From NCBI GenBank assembly GCA_030041515.1, contig JASHNS010000113.1:1-64000 (forward strand): DNA of 64,000 bases. Direction: 5' to 3'. The first letter of the stretch is position 1. Each line of letters starts with the position of its first letter. A program made the position numbers and the translations under genes. The DNA comes from Acidobacteriaceae bacterium. GTDB taxonomy: Bacteria; Acidobacteriota; Terriglobia; Terriglobales; Acidobacteriaceae. Below, one piece after another: positions 4,593 through 12,975 of the stretch. Under the pieces are notes generated by a model. It did not search any database. It was not told where the DNA came from and saw nothing but the letters and a program-made list of their open reading frames with translations.

Positions 4593-4698
4593 GGGCCTGA
4601 ACTTTTCTCTCCTGCGGAGTTGCTGTCGTCTTTATTTGCCGAACACGTATGATGGCAGTCGATTGCGGGTGGCGAAGCTGCGCGCAACCAGGGGATTT

Positions 4699-6531
4699 GT
4701 GAGCGAAGAGTTGCAGGACAAGCCGCGAAGTGCGCCGGAGGCCGCCCATGGATGGGAGGGAGATTACCGGCCGGCGTCCGGCGAGGCTGCGCATCGCGGC
4801 CAGCCGCACGTCGATCCTCCGCAAACGGAATTCCTGGTCCGGCTCACCGACACGCTGAATACGACCCTGGACCTGAATACGCTTTTGGAGCGGACGGCCT
4901 CGCTGGTGCGGGCGGTGATCGATTACAAAATTTTCGCCATCCTGCTCATCAATGATCGAACCAACGACCTGCGGATGCGGTTCCAGATCGGACACAAGCC
5001 GGAGGTGGAGCGGCTGCGCATCCGGATGGGGCACGGCGTGGTGGGGCAGGTAGCGCAGACCCGGCAGCCCATGCTGCTGAACGACGTACGCCAGGAGAAG
5101 AACTACATCGACGCCAATCCGGAGGTGCGGTCGGAGCTGGCCGTGCCTCTGATCCGGAAGAACCGCGTAATCGGGGTCATCGATATCCAGGCGGAACAGC
5201 TCAACTATTTCACCCAGGAGCATCTTCAGCTGCTGACGCTGACGGCGTCGCGGATTGCGGGCGCAGTGGAGAACGCGCGCCTGTACACGCGGGTGGCCAG
5301 GCAGGCGCAGACGCTGCAGGTGCTGAACGAGATCAGCCGGGAAATCACCTCGATTCTGGATCCGGACGAGCTGCTGGAGCGGGTGGGGCAATTGATCCGG
5401 CGGATTATCGACTACCAGATGCTTTCAATCTGGCTGGTGGATGAGCCTGAACACCAGCTGACGAATCGTCTCGCCATCCGCTTCGGTCAGCGATTCAACC
5501 CGAAGGAGAAGCTGCCGCTGGATCGGGGTCTGGTGGGCGCGGCGATGACGGAGAAGCGGGTGGTGGTGGTGCCGGACGTGCGCAAGGACCCGCGGTATCA
5601 CATGGTGAATCCGGAGACGCGCTCGGAGATGACGGTCCCGCTCTTCTACAAAGGTCGGGCGATGGGCGTGCTGGACATCGAGCACACGCGGGCGCACTTC
5701 TTCAACGAGGATCACGAGCGGGCGCTGACCACGCTGGCGGCGCAGATCGCGATCGCGCTCGAAAACGCGCAGTTGTACCAGCGCGTGGCGCAGCAGGAGC
5801 AGCGGCTGGAGCGGGATCTGGCCATGGCGCGCGAGGTGCAGCTGCGGCTGCTGCCGCAGAGGAAGCCGGAACACCAGAAAGCGGAGTTTGCGGCGAGGTT
5901 TCTGCCGGCACGGACCATTGGCGGCGATTTCTACGACTTTTTGCCCTACGACAGGGATTCGAGCGGCATCGCGCTGGGAGACGTGAGCGGGAAGGCCGCT
6001 CCGGCGGCCCTGTACGCCGCGCTGGTGAGCGGCGTGCTGCGTTCTGAGGCGACGACGCATCCATCGCCTTCGGTCATGCTGAAGGTGCTGAATGACGCTC
6101 TGCAGGAGCGCAAGCTGGACTCGCAGTACGTGGCCATGGTGTATGCGGTGTGGAATGACCAGAACCTGACGCTCCAGATCGCGAACGGCGGCGCGGTACA
6201 GCCTCTGATCTGCCGCGGCGAGGAGGTCGACACCATTCGCGCAGAGGGATTTCCGGTGGGAATGTTTCCAAACGCGACCTGGGAGGAGTTTTCGATCGCC
6301 ATGCAGCCGGGGGACGCGGTGGTCTTCTTCAGCGACGGGCTTTCCGACGCCCAGAACGCCGCCGGCGAGATGTACGGGACCGACCGGCTGGTGGCGTGCG
6401 TGAAGAAGCACCGCAACAAGTCGGCATCGAAGCTGGCCGAGGCCCTCCTGAACGAGGTAGGGCGGTTCCAGCACGGGCAGGAACGGTTCGATGACGAGAC
6501 GGTGGTCGTGGTGAAAGTGACCGGAAAATAG
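4699..6531 (+). CDS. GAF-GAF-PP2C (RsbU/SpoIIE-type) serine phosphatase
   Basis: The protein (610 residues from this start) has two GAF sensory domains at about residues 40-190 and 195-370, each with the typical SELAVPL or SEMTVPL strand and ENARLY or ENAQLY end. A short coiled linker with the LAMAREVQLRLLPQ signature of RsbU phosphatases follows. The C-terminal PP2C-like domain shows the metal-binding aspartates in GGDFYDF, LGDVSGKA, FSDGLSDA and FDDETVVVV. It should dephosphorylate anti-anti-sigma-type STAS proteins in a partner-switching pathway; no such partner is encoded nearby. A TTG at 4636 is in frame, but the GTG at 4699 follows AGGGGATTT and is preferred. No membrane segment, so cytosolic. 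Confidence 0.85.
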   Translation: MSEELQDKPRSAPEAAHGWEGDYRPASGEAAHRGQPHVDPPQTEFLVRLTDTLNTTLDLNTLLERTASLVRAVIDYKIFAILLINDRTNDLRMRFQIGHKPEVERLRIRMGHGVVGQVAQTRQPMLLNDVRQEKNYIDANPEVRSELAVPLIRKNRVIGVIDIQAEQLNYFTQEHLQLLTLTASRIAGAVENARLYTRVARQAQTLQVLNEISREITSILDPDELLERVGQLIRRIIDYQMLSIWLVDEPEHQLTNRLAIRFGQRFNPKEKLPLDRGLVGAAMTEKRVVVVPDVRKDPRYHMVNPETRSEMTVPLFYKGRAMGVLDIEHTRAHFFNEDHERALTTLAAQIAIALENAQLYQRVAQQEQRLERDLAMAREVQLRLLPQRKPEHQKAEFAARFLPARTIGGDFYDFLPYDRDSSGIALGDVSGKAAPAALYAALVSGVLRSEATTHPSPSVMLKVLNDALQERKLDSQYVAMVYAVWNDQNLTLQIANGGAVQPLICRGEEVDTIRAEGFPVGMFPNATWEEFSIAMQPGDAVVFFSDGLSDAQNAAGEMYGTDRLVACVKKHRNKSASKLAEALLNEVGRFQHGQERFDDETVVVVKVTGK

Positions 6532-7008: not shown

Positions 7009-7047
7009 AGGGAGCGCTTCCCAAAAAGCTCACCGTTGGAGGTCAGG

Positions 7048-7983
7048 ATGCGCCGCGGCGTCTTCCAATTTGCCTTGGTTTCGTTTCTTCTACCCAGTTT
7101 CCTGATGGCGCAACAGGCGCCGCTCACCCAGCCTCAGCAGGCTGCCGCTTCCGCGCAAACGGCCACAACTTCTCCGGAATCCTCATCGGCATCAGAGCCT
7201 AAGGCCGCGACCTCTTCCGCTTCCGTACCAGCGGTTGCGACATCCGCAGCCCCGCCGCCTGACACCCTGCTGGATGGGACGCCGGTGAAGCTGCGGCTCG
7301 CCCAGACGATATCGTCCCATGACGCAAAAGTCGGACAGGAGGTGCCCTTCGAGGTGATTGAGGACGTCGATGTGGATGGCGTGCCGGTCATTGCAAAAGG
7401 CGCGACCGCAATTGGCACCGTGACCGAAGCCCAGCCGAGGCGGAGCATGGGCCGCGCGGGAAAACTGAACATCAGCATCAGTTACGTGCGCCTTCGCGAC
7501 AACGAAAAGGCGATGTTGCGGGCGGTCAAAGATGAAAAAGGCGGCGGTCATGTGGGCGCGATGACGGGGGCGATGGTAGCCACGTCGATCGTTTTCTTTC
7601 CGGCAGCTCCGCTTTTTCTGTTTGTGCATGGCAAAGACATCACAATTCCGCAGGGAACGGAGATTACCGCCTTCGTTCAGGGAGACATGCACCTGAACAT
7701 GGCGCAGATTGAAGACGCGGGCGCCACCGCCGCCCCGACGGCAGTGACCACTGCCACGCCGGCCGGTTGCTCGCTGATTGTTTCGTCCACGCCGCCGGGA
7801 GCCGATATCGATATCGACGGGGCTTTCGTGGGCAACACGCCGTCGACGGTGACGGTGAGCGCGGGCAGCCACGAAGTCGTCGTGAAAAAGCAGGGGTACA
7901 CGGACTGGAGCCGCAAGCTGAGCGTAACTGCCGGCAGCGTGCATCTGGATGCGACGCTCAACCCGTCTGCAGCCGGGAGTTAA
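7048..7983 (+). CDS. Exported PEGA-domain protein
   Basis: The 311-residue product begins with a signal peptide (MRRGVFQFALVSFLLPSFLM, cleavage near MAQQ) and a low-complexity Ala/Ser/Thr/Pro stretch to about residue 70. A beta-rich core follows (DGTPVKLRLAQTISSHDAK), then a hydrophobic segment near residues 170-195. The C-terminal PEGA domain starts at about residue 243 with SLIVSSTPPGADIDIDG and includes GNTPSTV and KKQGYTDW. PEGA domains occur on bacterial cell-surface and lipoprotein-associated proteins, so an envelope role is likely; the molecular function is unknown. A TTG at 7036 is in frame, but GGAGGT sits four bases before the ATG used here. A terminator closes the unit. Confidence 0.75.
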   Translation: MRRGVFQFALVSFLLPSFLMAQQAPLTQPQQAAASAQTATTSPESSSASEPKAATSSASVPAVATSAAPPPDTLLDGTPVKLRLAQTISSHDAKVGQEVPFEVIEDVDVDGVPVIAKGATAIGTVTEAQPRRSMGRAGKLNISISYVRLRDNEKAMLRAVKDEKGGGHVGAMTGAMVATSIVFFPAAPLFLFVHGKDITIPQGTEITAFVQGDMHLNMAQIEDAGATAAPTAVTTATPAGCSLIVSSTPPGADIDIDGAFVGNTPSTVTVSAGSHEVVVKKQGYTDWSRKLSVTAGSVHLDATLNPSAAGS

Positions 7984-8030: not shown

Positions 8031-8178
8031 CGCTCTTGGGATAAATCTGCCCGAGAAGGCAGGGAAATCCCGCCAAAGAGGAACAGCGATGCGATCTGGG
8101 GCGGAGGATTTGGTATCCTCAAGGGTTTTATTCCCTGTCGTGGAAAGATTGGGGACAGGCGGCCAAATGGGAGCGGAG

Positions 8179-8550
8179 ATGCCGGAACAGCGGGGACGAA
8201 AGTATCACCAGGAGCGGGTGGCGGAGACGCTGCGGGACGAGATCGGGGCCATGATCGAGGGGGAGCTGTCGGACCCGCGGATCAGCTTCGCGTACGTCAG
8301 CCAGGTGGTCCTGAATCCAGGCGGGAAATCCGCGCTGATTTACGTGGCCGTGGACGGCGGGGCGCAGGAAGAAGCAGACACGCTGGAGGCACTGATGGCG
8401 GCGCGGGGGTATATCCGGCACGAGCTGTTGGAGCGGATGGGGGTGCGGTTTGTGCCGGAGCTGACCTTCCATATCGACCGTTCGGACAAGATGAAGGCGC
8501 GGATTGATGAGCTGTTGGGGAGGAAACGCAGGACAGGATTGAGAGGGTAG
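8179..8550 (+). CDS. rbfA: 30S ribosome-binding factor A
   Basis: The 123-residue protein matches RbfA, which helps 16S rRNA 5'-end maturation and 30S assembly, notably in the cold. Family landmarks are the N-terminal helix YHQERVAETLRDEIGAMI, ELSDPRISFAYVSQVVL, and the C-terminal segment PELTFHIDRSDK. The ATG chosen follows GGGAG; in-frame ATGs at 8089 and 8167 would add residues that do not resemble the family. In many genomes rbfA follows infB; here infB is absent and nrnA lies downstream, as is common in several phyla. A small inverted repeat (AGGATTTGGTATCCT) lies about 65 bases upstream. Confidence 0.92.
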   Translation: MPEQRGRKYHQERVAETLRDEIGAMIEGELSDPRISFAYVSQVVLNPGGKSALIYVAVDGGAQEEADTLEALMAARGYIRHELLERMGVRFVPELTFHIDRSDKMKARIDELLGRKRRTGLRG

Positions 8551-8669: not shown

Positions 8670-9662
8670 GTGCTGGACGTGGTGCGGCGCGGGCAGAAAT
8701 TCGCCGTGTGCTCGCACGCGCGGCCCGACGGCGATGCGGTCGGATCGATGCTGGCGTGTGGCATGTTGCTGGCCGGGCTGAACAAGCAGGCGGATCTCTA
8801 CTCGGCCGATCCGGTGCCGCAAATCTATCGATGGCTGCCGTGCGCGGAGACCATCCGGCGGGTGACCCGCGTCGAGGGCAGCTACGACGCGGCGATCCTG
8901 CTGGAATGCGACGGATTAGCGCGGACGCGGCTCGAGGGTCTCGAAGGACGGTTCCTGGTGAACATCGACCATCATGCGAGCTGGAAGGCATTCGCGGCGG
9001 TGAACTGGATTGAGGAAGGCGCCTGTGCCGTGGCGGAGATGGTCTACCGGCTGACCCGGGCCGCGGGAGGCGCGATGACCCCGGCCATGGCGACATGCCT
9101 GTACACCGCGGTGCTCACCGACACGGGATCGTTCTGCTACGAGGGAACGGACGCGCATGCTTTCGACTTGGCGCGCGACCTGGTGGTGTGCGGGGCGCGG
9201 CCGGCGGAGATTGCGCGGGAAGTGTATTTTTCCAATCCGTTGCCGAAGATGGCGCTGCTGGGGACGGCGCTGACGCGTCTGCGCCGCGAGGGGCGGCTCG
9301 CGTGGCTCTGGGTGACCGACGAGGACATGACGCGCGCGCACGCCACGGAAGAAGACTGCGAAGGAATCGTGAACTACGCGATCGGCATCGCAGGCGTGGA
9401 GGCAGCGGTGCTGCTGCGGGAGCTGAGCGACGGCAGGATCCGGCTTTCGCTGCGCAGCAAGGGCGGCGTGGATGTGGCGCGGATCGCCGCAAGCTTCGGC
9501 GGAGGTGGACATCGGCATGCCGGCGGCTGCACGCTGGAGGGGCCCCTGCACGCGGCGATGGAGAGAATCCTGGAGACGATGCGGCGCGAACTCAGCAGGG
9601 AAAACCAGAAGATACGCGAAGCCTCGCGGGCGGAATCGCGCGGGATGAATCTGTTAGGCTGA
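8670..9662 (+). CDS. nrnA: DHH/DHHA1 phosphoesterase, NrnA-type oligoribonuclease / pAp phosphatase
   Basis: The 330-residue enzyme has the DHH-family core: the HARPDGDAVGS metal-binding motif near the N-terminus, ILLECDG, and VNIDHHASW, the name-giving DHH triad. The DHHA1 substrate-binding domain ends with SFGGGGHRHAGGC. NrnA-type proteins degrade nano-RNAs and/or dephosphorylate 3'-phosphoadenosine 5'-phosphate, and cytosolic action is expected. GTG at 8670 is the only usable start that keeps the usual short N-terminus; GGAGG lies unusually close, two bases before it. The rbfA-nrnA order is a conserved neighbourhood, and the 119-bp spacing is compatible with cotranscription. Confidence 0.9.
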   Translation: MLDVVRRGQKFAVCSHARPDGDAVGSMLACGMLLAGLNKQADLYSADPVPQIYRWLPCAETIRRVTRVEGSYDAAILLECDGLARTRLEGLEGRFLVNIDHHASWKAFAAVNWIEEGACAVAEMVYRLTRAAGGAMTPAMATCLYTAVLTDTGSFCYEGTDAHAFDLARDLVVCGARPAEIAREVYFSNPLPKMALLGTALTRLRREGRLAWLWVTDEDMTRAHATEEDCEGIVNYAIGIAGVEAAVLLRELSDGRIRLSLRSKGGVDVARIAASFGGGGHRHAGGCTLEGPLHAAMERILETMRRELSRENQKIREASRAESRGMNLLG

Positions 9663-9714: not shown

Positions 9715-11850
9715 TTGGACGTGTCGGTGCGGAAGCCGCGGGCTCAATTCCGAGGATCGCAAACCAGCCCAGTGACTGAGTCATCTCCAGAAGACGGAAA
9801 AGAGAAGGCGGGCGGCCGATATGCCGGCGGCGAAGCGCAACTGAAGGCGCGGGAGCCGGGGCTCGTATTGCGGCTGTGGCGGCGGATTCCCGGCATCGAT
9901 GTGCCCATGGAAACGGCGACGCTGCTGGTGATGACGGCGTTCTTCATCTTTTACGGGCTGGTGCCGATCTTCGGGGGCGACGGCCTGGGCCTGGTCGGCG
10001 CCGACGAGCCGCGTTACGCGCAGATTGCGCGGGAGATGCTCAAGCGCCGCGACTACATTACGCCGGTGCTGTGGGGGCATCCGTGGCTGGAGAAACCTGC
10101 GCTGTACTACTGGCGGGCGATGTTCGCCTTCAAGGAGTTCGGGATTCACGACTGGTCGGCGAGGCTGCCTTCAGCAAGCTTCGCTTTTATGCTGGTGTTC
10201 CTGATCTGGCTGCACATGCGCCGGTTCCGCAACGGAGGACAGCTGGATGCGGCGCTGCTGACGGCATCGTGCGCGGGAATCCTGAGCTTCGCACGCGGGG
10301 CCTCGACGGACATGCAGCTGGCAGCGCCCTTCTGCATCGGCATGCTGGGCTGGTACGCGTGGTATGAGACGAACAGCAAATTCTGGCTCTTCGACCTCTA
10401 CTTTTTTGTCGGGGCGGCCACCCTGGCGAAGGGGCCGGTCGCCCCGCTCCTGGCGCTGGTGATTATCGGAATCTTCGCCGGGCTGCGGCGGGAGTGGTCG
10501 CTGTTCCGGCGAAGTTTGTGGCCGGCCGGGTTTGTGCTGTATTTCGCGATGGTGCTGCCCTGGTACATCGAGGTGCAGCGCCGGAATCCCACATTTCTGA
10601 AGGTTTTCTTTCTCCAGCAGAACCTGGAACGGCTGGCGACGAACCGCTTCGAGCACTACCACCCTTTCTGGTATTTCATTCCGGTGGTGCTGCTGGGGCT
10701 GACGCCCTGGGCGGTGATCGCGGTAACGGCGTTTGCCGACGCCGTGGGCGGCTCGATCAACGAATGGAAAGCGCGAGGGGCGAAGGGGCGGTATATCGGT
10801 CATGAGCGCGCCGGAGACGCGTTTCCTGAATTCCTGGTGCTGTGGGCCGTGGTGGTCATCGTGTTCTTCTCGTTTTCCGAGTCGAAGCTGCCGGGATTCA
10901 TTCTGCCCGCGATTCCGCCGCTGACGATTCTGGCCGGCGACTATCTGAACCGCATCCGGCGGCGGGGGTTGAAGACCTGGCTGCTGGTGCTGCACGCCGT
11001 TGCGACGGGAATTCTGACCATGTTCGTGCTGCTGATGCCCCTGCACCTGACCGCGCCGGAGTCGATTCCTCCGGGAATTGCAATTGTGGCGGCGGGGGTG
11101 GTGGGCCTGGCAGCGACGGTATTCATTCTGATCATGGTGGCGCGGTTCGGCCTGAAGCGGCTGCGTCTGGCTACGCTGACGCCCATCGTGATGCTGCTCT
11201 TCTACATTGTGGGGGTGGGGCCGGTTTTCGGAATCAAGGCGGTACCGAATACGAAGCGCAATATCGAGCTGATGAACATGACGTTTTCGGCGCGGCCCAT
11301 GGCGCGCATTCTGAACGCGATCAGCCCGCCGCCGGGAGTGGTGGCGGTGTTTCGGGTGCGGCGCGAGCTGCAATATGGACTGGGGTTCTATCGCGATGAG
11401 CGCATCGTGAATTACGATGTGGGCATCGTGGTGGACAATCCGCCGGCCAGCGCCGGGCCGGGGCCGCACGGCGTGGTGATTGAGGATGTCAAAGAAGGGT
11501 CATCGGCGGACGAATTTGGGATGGTGCAGAAGATTGGCGACGATCTGGTCGCAGTGAACGGCCAGCCGGTGCTGAATGCCGCGGACTTCGACCAGATGGA
11601 AGCGGGGTGGCATCCCGGGGAGAAGGTGGAGTTCGAGATTCTGGATCCGCGGATGCCCGAGGAGCCGCCGCAGTTTCTGGGCGGCGCAATGGACGATGGC
11701 GTTCCGCAGGGGCAGCATCTGCTGGTGGCGCCGGAAAGCGCCGTGGAGGCGCTGAAGAAGAAACTGGCGGGGAGAGAGTACGAGCCGCTGTTCTCGTATC
11801 CGTGGCAAGACCTCGAAGTGTATCGAGTGATGGCAGCGGGGCAGCGGTAG
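9715..11850 (+). CDS. ArnT/PMT-like polytopic glycosyltransferase with inserted PDZ-like domain
   Basis: The 711-residue integral membrane protein resembles lipid-linked-sugar glycosyltransferases of the ArnT/GT39-GT83 group. The first periplasmic loop has GADEPRYAQIAREML and WLEKPALYYW, with the acidic catalytic Asp-Glu pair, followed by roughly ten further hydrophobic segments. The soluble C-terminal part is unusual: from about residue 585 to 650 it reads as a PDZ domain (VVIEDVKEGSSADEFG, GDDLVAVNGQPV, GEKVEFEIL). The ordinary transferase tail (HLLVAPESAVEALKKKL) then resumes. Donor and acceptor are unknown; these enzymes typically modify lipid A or proteins from polyprenyl-phosphate sugars. 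The start is uncertain (TTG 9715, GTG 9721 or 9727). Confidence 0.8.
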   Translation: MDVSVRKPRAQFRGSQTSPVTESSPEDGKEKAGGRYAGGEAQLKAREPGLVLRLWRRIPGIDVPMETATLLVMTAFFIFYGLVPIFGGDGLGLVGADEPRYAQIAREMLKRRDYITPVLWGHPWLEKPALYYWRAMFAFKEFGIHDWSARLPSASFAFMLVFLIWLHMRRFRNGGQLDAALLTASCAGILSFARGASTDMQLAAPFCIGMLGWYAWYETNSKFWLFDLYFFVGAATLAKGPVAPLLALVIIGIFAGLRREWSLFRRSLWPAGFVLYFAMVLPWYIEVQRRNPTFLKVFFLQQNLERLATNRFEHYHPFWYFIPVVLLGLTPWAVIAVTAFADAVGGSINEWKARGAKGRYIGHERAGDAFPEFLVLWAVVVIVFFSFSESKLPGFILPAIPPLTILAGDYLNRIRRRGLKTWLLVLHAVATGILTMFVLLMPLHLTAPESIPPGIAIVAAGVVGLAATVFILIMVARFGLKRLRLATLTPIVMLLFYIVGVGPVFGIKAVPNTKRNIELMNMTFSARPMARILNAISPPPGVVAVFRVRRELQYGLGFYRDERIVNYDVGIVVDNPPASAGPGPHGVVIEDVKEGSSADEFGMVQKIGDDLVAVNGQPVLNAADFDQMEAGWHPGEKVEFEILDPRMPEEPPQFLGGAMDDGVPQGQHLLVAPESAVEALKKKLAGREYEPLFSYPWQDLEVYRVMAAGQR

Positions 11851-11964: not shown

Positions 11965-12975
11965 ATGGCGGCGGCATTGCAGTTTGAGGTGCTCGATCTG
12001 CGTCACTTTTCAGCGGGCATCATGCGGCCGCTGCTGGAGGCGGAGAGCCGCGTTTGGAGTGAGCGGCTGCACTGGGACTATCGGGGCTCGGCAGACCTGC
12101 TGCTGCAGTATCTGGACTCGCGCGTGTTGCCGGGCTATGTGGCCGTGGAAAACGGGCGCGTTGTCGGCTATGTGTTCTGCGTGTATGAGGGACACAAGGC
12201 CGTCATTGGCGACATTTTTGCCCTGGAGTCCGGGGAGCCGGGGCGCACCGCCGGCGGAGGCGGATCCAGTGCGGCCGAAGTGCGAGCCGAACTGCTGCGG
12301 CGGTTGCTGGAAATGCTGCAAAATACGCCGGGCGTCACCCGGATTGAATCCCAGCTGCTGCTGCACCCCCACGGAGACCATACAGGAGCCTTCGAGCAGG
12401 CGGGATTCGAGGTTTACGAGCGCATCTTTATGGAGTGCCCGCTGCGCCGGGCGGTGCCACCCGGCACGCCGGCGCCCGTTGGCGAAACGCTGACGATGCG
12501 GCGCTGGGCGGAAGGCGATTTCGCGGCCGCTGGGCGCCTGATTGCCGCCTGCTATGAAGGCCATCTGGACAGCCACATCAACGAGCAGTACCGCACCGCC
12601 GCGGGATCGCAGCGTTTTCTGCACAATATTGTGCGGTTTCCGGGCTGCGGATATTTTGACGCTGAGTCGTCGCGGACGCTGAGCGAGCCGGGGAGCACGG
12701 AGCTGGCGGGGCTGCTGCTGTGTTCGCGCGTGCGAGAGGATGTGGGACACGTGACGCAAATCTGCGTGGCGCCGCAACTTCGCGGCCGAGGGCTGGGAAA
12801 GGCGCTGATGCAGGAATGCGCGCGAAACCTGGCCCAGCGCGGGTACCAGATGCTGACCCTGACCGTGACGGCGTCGAACCAGAACGCGGTCGCGCTGTAC
12901 GAGCGAATGGGATTCCAGGGCACGCATCGCTTCGACGCGATGGTATGGGACCCGAGCGAGCACGGGCGGGCGTGA
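11965..12975 (+). CDS. Double GNAT-family N-acetyltransferase
   Basis: The 336-residue protein holds two GNAT folds in tandem. The N-terminal one (about 1-155) includes YVAVENGRVVGYVFCVYEG but has a weak acetyl-CoA loop. The C-terminal one (about 165-330) has a complete loop (QICVAPQLRGRGLGKALM) and the terminal NQNAVALYERMGF signature. The likely activity is acetyl transfer from acetyl-CoA to a small molecule or a protein N-terminus; no substrate can be inferred. In such tandem proteins often only one half is catalytic, here probably the C-terminal one. GGAGGT lies about ten bases before the ATG. It is flanked by the glycosyltransferase and the GH57 gene without an obvious functional link. 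Confidence 0.8.
   Translation: MAAALQFEVLDLRHFSAGIMRPLLEAESRVWSERLHWDYRGSADLLLQYLDSRVLPGYVAVENGRVVGYVFCVYEGHKAVIGDIFALESGEPGRTAGGGGSSAAEVRAELLRRLLEMLQNTPGVTRIESQLLLHPHGDHTGAFEQAGFEVYERIFMECPLRRAVPPGTPAPVGETLTMRRWAEGDFAAAGRLIAACYEGHLDSHINEQYRTAAGSQRFLHNIVRFPGCGYFDAESSRTLSEPGSTELAGLLLCSRVREDVGHVTQICVAPQLRGRGLGKALMQECARNLAQRGYQMLTLTVTASNQNAVALYERMGFQGTHRFDAMVWDPSEHGRA

Follow-up and report, generated by a model that had tools for sequence, protein, structure and literature searches.

A PDZ domain almost certainly stands at residues 569-659 of the protein encoded at 9715-11850 of the window (the whole stretch of DNA that was analysed, 64,000 nucleotides), within the soluble periplasmic tail of an ArnT-like GT-C membrane glycosyltransferase, and it very probably descends from the C-terminal PDZ domain (PDZ2) of an HtrA-type protease. 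The transferase-PDZ architecture is a new combination of known parts. The preliminary description knew of no GT83/GT39 enzyme with such an insert, and none was found in the literature as judged from titles and abstract openings; in a survey of PDZ proteins in microbes (PMC6411480), the words "glycosyl" and "transferase" were found 0 times in the main text. The window gene is an unusually clear instance of domain capture, as the recipient with and without the insert, the donor family and the single origin are all readable from genomes. Descent from an HtrA PDZ2 and a docking role of the insert, taken jointly, are given an even chance.

The transferase and the inserted domain

The features of the locus, with coordinates in the window, are given below.

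8089..8550, plus strand: rbfA, conserved upstream neighbour (synteny anchor)
8670..9662, plus strand: DHH/DHHA1 phosphoesterase, directly upstream neighbour, which we take to be NrnA-like
9715..11850, plus strand: ArnT-like membrane glycosyltransferase of the GT-C fold that carries the PDZ insert; 711 aa from a TTG start, upstream of which the frame stays open for another 6 codons
10003..10008, plus strand: catalytic-type Asp-Glu pair D97-E98, aligned with D55/E56 of Cupriavidus metallidurans ArnT (5ezm)
10090..10095, plus strand: E126-K127, aligned with metal/phosphate-binding E84/K85 of 5ezm
10093..10566, plus strand: match to PMT_2 (PF13231), residues 127-284, by Pfam
11248..11418, plus strand: part of the host periplasmic domain that precedes the insert, residues 512-568 (ending ...FYRDERIVNYD), by hydropathy and alignment
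11419..11691, plus strand: inserted PDZ domain, residues 569-659, homologous lengthwise to PDZ2, the C-terminal domain of the HtrA/Do protease of the same genome
11419..11433, plus strand: PDZ ligand-loop motif V-G-I-V-V, from the comparison of 9 inserts with 17 near HtrA PDZ2s
11692..11850, plus strand: host periplasmic domain resumes (DDGVPQGQHLLVAPES... from about here), residues 660-711 and stop, by the relatives' alignment
11965..12975, plus strand: GNAT acetyltransferase, conserved neighbour directly downstream

ArnT-type enzymes have a soluble C-terminal periplasmic domain, and the modelled protein is of the same ArnT-like GT-C fold with such a domain. The full-length AlphaFold2 model (residues 57-711, built with 54 sequences, mean pLDDT 82.6, pTM 0.83) was aligned with 498 residues of ArnT from C. 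metallidurans, the GT83 lipid A aminoarabinose transferase (5f15; Z 37.7, 3.7 A, 23% identity), and the closest solved sequence was the same enzyme (5ezm, 115 bits, best stretch residues 76-493). PMT_2 was matched by the 711-aa protein with 33.6 bits (cut-off 26.1), and the last hydrophobic segment ended at about residue 511 by hydropathy. The D-E and E-K pairs of the two enzymes were aligned with each other, the 5ezm chain index and the published numbers apparently differing by a constant 3, and the roles of the 5ezm residues (D55/E56, metal/phosphate-binding E84/K85) were taken from a passage of PMC7801869. D97-E98 and E126-K127 were invariant in all 54 rows of the transferase alignment. Since these pairs known from ArnT are kept, the GT-C core probably uses a lipid-carried sugar as donor and acts on the periplasmic side; as the NCBIfam ArnT equivalog score (139.7 bits) lies far below its cut-off of 567, donor sugar and acceptor may differ from those of ArnT.

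The C. metallidurans enzyme differs from the window protein in having no PDZ: the alignment with 5ezm/5f15 passes around the insert, and to our knowledge the ArnT structure contains no such domain. Oligosaccharyltransferases and the Pmt protein O-mannosyltransferases, which belong to the GT-C clan, were also among the structural matches, well below ArnT. The extra soluble domains of these two groups and of the TMTCs are, as far as we know, not PDZ. Human TMTCs, members of the same clan, have been compared with 5ezm (passage of PMC7801869).

By Pfam, the whole protein scored barely above the cut-off for PDZ (PF00595, residues 579-642, 23.3 bits against 23.2), and the scores were 27.6 bits for the insert alone and 27.9 bits in the whole-genome search. 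Residues 513..607 of the AlphaFold2 model (569-663 of the protein) superposed on a PDZ of Legionella fallonii DegQ (3pv5_B, residues 248-344) with Z 13.1 and an rmsd of 1.9 A over 87 aligned residues. The ten-residue blocks inside the insert had pLDDT values of 64-83 in the full-length model, and the model of the insert folded alone with short flanks (117 residues, 9 sequences) was unusable at pLDDT 47. With Foldseek alone the DegQ chains ranked only at E of about 0.01-0.1, because the transferase fills the match list, and the segment-level match came from the VIA realignment. The domain had earlier been placed at about residues 585-650; it is indeed there, and the true insert is slightly wider, 569-659.

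Relatives without the insert

The best 80 of 105 relatives were fetched, of which 9 carried the segment (L009-L017) and 69 were without it; in the other 2 (L023, L058) the contig ended before that point. In all 69 non-carriers the 91 insert columns were filled by no more than 5 residues and the host tail beyond was retained, a pattern not due to chance; in many of them BLAST joined residue ~568 directly to 660 or 661, and the closest non-carrier in the alignment was 73% identical to the window protein. The orthologues of Paracidobacterium, Silvibacterium and Acidipila (L018, L019, L021), which are the same gene with rbfA, DHH and GNAT neighbours, had 66-70% identity over the best segment, and in their BLAST alignments 568 directly adjoins 660 with no PDZ between. 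An insert hidden in the fetched relatives was rejected, as the insert model matched only 9 of the 80. The alignment of insert-less relatives stops at about residue 568 and picks up at about 660, so the transferase continues beyond the PDZ, as had been claimed.

These relatives also bear on the reading that the segment is an ordinary ArnT/PMT C-terminal domain merely resembling a PDZ. The AlphaFold2 model does align to ArnT up to the end of ArnT, which such a reading would expect; it is refuted by the 69 of 69 relatives lacking the segment and by the DegQ fold match, and is given virtually no credence. Thus neither of the outcomes named beforehand as refuting (no PDZ fold, or an ordinary part of the family's C-terminal domain) occurred, and the presence of a PDZ domain inside the soluble tail of an ArnT/PMT-like transferase is borne out by sequence models, by the fold match, by relatives with an empty site and by a donor family that can be identified.

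The transferase tree was built with the insert columns removed from 54 rows (the window and 53 of the 80 loci) by a quick search, and the 9 carriers (the window and L009-L016) formed one clade with an SH-aLRT value of 100. The rooting was loose, as the outgroup was not on one side of a branch, and the carriers were one side of a branch at 100. On this tree, the insert has one origin among the sampled carriers.

Distribution of the insert

Of the window's genus, 12 genomes were searched with the insert model: 9 had complete unbroken genes, all of them with the whole insert, and none of the 12 was shown to be without it. In the remaining 3, the frame was broken inside the insert (G220), the gene was split between contigs with the end of the insert on the second contig (G181), or the gene was cut before the insert (G232). 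In G220 (contig C44; L017 / L141), positions 1-71 of the insert model were found in one frame and 70-93 in another, and the frame break is either an assembly error or a decaying copy.

In the family-wide search the transferase was matched at E 1e-30 or better in 378 of 398 genomes, and past query residue 588 only rows of the window's genus were found among the matches listed. Across the class, at least 186 of 399 genomes matched the insert model at E 1e-6 in a search that scored part of each genome's candidates (13 in most rows). From 58 stretches (L120-L177, some covering the same place), 59 insert-like frames were obtained, 52 of which matched the protease model; the other 7 comprised one of the genus's transferases, 2 more fragments of genes of the genus and 4 weak frames of 608-630 aa with 31-50 bits to the protease model and no transferase match. 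In the window's own genome there were 10 PMT_2 places and 12 PDZ places, and the only one common to both was the frame at 9715-11850. Acidobacteriaceae-like transferase loci were also seen in records titled Rhodanobacteraceae and Verrucomicrobia (L077, L082), which are probably mislabelled or mixed metagenome bins.

Probable origin from the second PDZ domain of an HtrA protease

Beyond the insert itself, the next best match to the insert model in the own genome was one frame on contig C115, which covered positions 2-92 of 93 with 79.5 bits. The match after that reached 24.9 bits, and on these scores an origin from another own-genome PDZ was rejected. The C115 frame (L129:2021-3805, minus strand, genome G000) encodes a Do-family serine protease of 595 aa with a Trypsin_2 domain and a TIGR02037 score of 396.6 bits, slightly below the cut-off of 416.2. 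Two of its stretches matched the insert model, and the better one was C-terminal, at residues 504-594 of 595. The protease itself has been retained in the genomes of this genus. The insert has in common with the PDZ2 of HtrA/DegP/DegQ the G-I-x-V loop and the DP..P.....G tail, and differs from it in place, HtrA PDZ2 being the C-terminus of the protease and the insert standing in the middle of the tail of a membrane transferase.

The window insert was about 42% identical to the own-genome HtrA PDZ2 and 33-43% identical to 17 PDZ2s of the genus and near genera, 13 of the 17 being aligned without gaps. Identities were 39-43% for PDZ2s of its own genus (11 rows) and 33-42% for those of other genera (6 rows); by sequence identity, some HtrA PDZ2s of other genera are as close to the window insert as those of its own genus. 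In a tree of 46 domains the inserts formed one clade (100/100) with a long stem branch of 1.12 and were grouped with the 17 near HtrA PDZ2s (100/97). Three alternative placements were left unrejected by the AU test, namely a clade of the near HtrA domains that excludes the inserts (p 0.49), one of all family HtrA except L155 that excludes them (p 0.19) and the inserts with the genus's own HtrA (p 0.30), so that "HtrA PDZ2 of this bacterial family" is supported as the source and the exact branch is not. The best PDB match of the insert profile was the "Protease do" chain 2zle, presumably E. coli DegP, with a whole-chain E of 1.1e-7; the best stretch, 375-424, lay in the second PDZ, beyond the first, and by itself had E 7.9e-4.

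The 9 inserts and the 17 near HtrA PDZ2s had ten invariant residues in common (G570, V573, G586, V587, G595, A598, G608, G635, P645 and G657), with I571 found in 9/9 and 15/17, respectively. Eight residues (P584, E594, D609, G616, L620, W632, P652 and M659) were invariant in the inserts and absent from all 17 PDZ2s. Two of them, D609 and G616, are canonical PDZ residues, and the insert therefore either reverted at these positions or left the HtrA PDZ2 line earlier. The near Acidobacteriaceae HtrA PDZ2s have lost the usual PDZ residues (G-D replaced by G-G/F, N-G by N-R/K), and in other families of the class several PDZ2s of HtrA keep G-D.

Selection and possible function of the insert

The codon comparison was done as a simple pairwise NG86 test, the values of which are rough as dS was near 1.1. 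Of the four regions, the insert had the highest median dN/dS, 0.199 (from 35 usable pairs out of 36), with 0.079 for the membrane part (36/36), 0.129 for the host tail before the insert (35/36) and 0.162 for that after it (27/36). By this comparison, the insert is under purifying selection that is somewhat weaker than in the adjacent host tail. That the PDZ2 copy is a tolerated passenger, folding by itself in a surface loop and selected only against misfolding with no ligand, would fit the highest dN/dS, the long stem branch of the insert clade and an insertion point which, being short in all 69 non-carriers, looks permissive. A pure passenger should nevertheless tend to lose G570, I571 and V573 together with the lineage-specific E594, W632 and P652, all of which are invariant in 9/9, and the insert itself was kept in every one of the complete unbroken genes of the genus; this reading is thus considered rather unlikely.

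The insert is judged slightly more likely than not to be a protein-docking module at all. The PDZ2 copy would have been kept as a folded docking module, by which the transferase, held to a partner in the periplasm, would be positioned or gated at that site, the GT-C core meanwhile doing ordinary lipid-linked sugar transfer. The ligand loop of the 9 inserts is of the hydrophobic-G-hydrophobic kind, with the pattern V/L/D-G-I-x-V; in one insert the hydrophobic residue ahead of G is replaced by D. Directly before the V-G-I loop all 9 inserts have D, where the HtrA PDZ2s of L129 and L131 have R, which calls for caution on classical C-terminal carboxylate binding, as the D may weaken it. The preliminary description had suggested selection of protein acceptors or docking on an envelope protease or secretion factor. 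Nothing in the analysis favours a protein acceptor, and ArnT, the nearest solved relative, modifies lipid A; the HtrA-type origin of the domain makes docking on an envelope protease more plausible.

The most likely partner would be something that HtrA PDZ2 contacts, with the PDZ1 face of the HtrA trimer as first choice and a client or peptide recognised by PDZ2 as second. In DegP, PDZ2 contacts PDZ1 of a neighbour and holds trimers together (passages of PMC11642142 and PMC8654288), cages are assembled by PDZ1-PDZ2' contacts between protomers (passage of PMC11642142), and Tyr444 locks onto Met280 of PDZ1 (passage of PMC8654288). This contact makes the PDZ1 of HtrA the most specific candidate, and by analogy HtrA itself is a possible, still doubtful, partner of the insert. 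At residue 654, F was found in 8 of the 9 inserts and Y or F in 10 of the 17 near HtrA PDZ2s. By alignment with the DegP C-terminal sequence, the column plausibly corresponds to DegP Tyr444. An aromatic residue at such a counterpart position favours a retained PDZ1-PDZ2' contact, by which the captured domain would draw the transferase to HtrA trimers or membrane-bound bowls; argued by analogy with DegP, this is put forward as a long shot, less probable than HtrA being the partner in any manner.

The same residue can be read otherwise. W632 (9/9) and F654 (8/9) could be packing residues if the PDZ acted within its own chain, by packing against the periplasmic domain of the host or against another transferase copy and gating the active site or dimerising, with no outside ligand. 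The periplasmic domain of ArnT-type enzymes lies near the active-site cavity. In the model the insert is within this domain, which is also present in ArnT-type enzymes, and the assembly of DegP cages through contacts between protomers is a precedent for a PDZ2 acting on copies of its own protein; an action of this kind is nonetheless judged improbable.

The docking reading is the preferred one. The donor, a periplasmic protease, and the recipient, an envelope sugar transferase, share a compartment, and we know of no contact between an HtrA-type protease and an envelope sugar transferase. Should the captured PDZ bind HtrA or clients of HtrA, the modification of envelope glycans would be tied to protein quality control in a way that can be tested directly, and nature would have supplied a case of a PDZ module steering a GT-C enzyme. 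If in particular the PDZ1-PDZ2' contact is made, envelope sugar transfer and periplasmic quality control would be physically coupled in the genus, with sugars added, for example, at sites of envelope stress or even onto HtrA-bound clients.

Gene neighbourhood

The order DHH - transferase - GNAT was found in 9/9 carriers and 56/69 non-carriers, with rbfA ahead of it in 8 carriers and 55 non-carriers. As these neighbours are common to the carriers and most non-carriers, the PDZ entered an existing gene in place. Upstream of rbfA, at 7036-7983 of the window, a protein whose C-terminal part is a PEGA domain (61.8 bits) is encoded; it was found in 3/9 carrier loci, 1/2 cut loci and 0/69 non-carrier loci, these counts being limited by the locus ends. 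A GAF-GAF-SpoIIE phosphatase at 4636-6531, upstream of the cluster, was found in 4/9 carrier loci, 2/2 cut loci and 0/69 non-carrier loci, with counts limited in the same manner, and represents a change of neighbourhood in the same genus as the insert.
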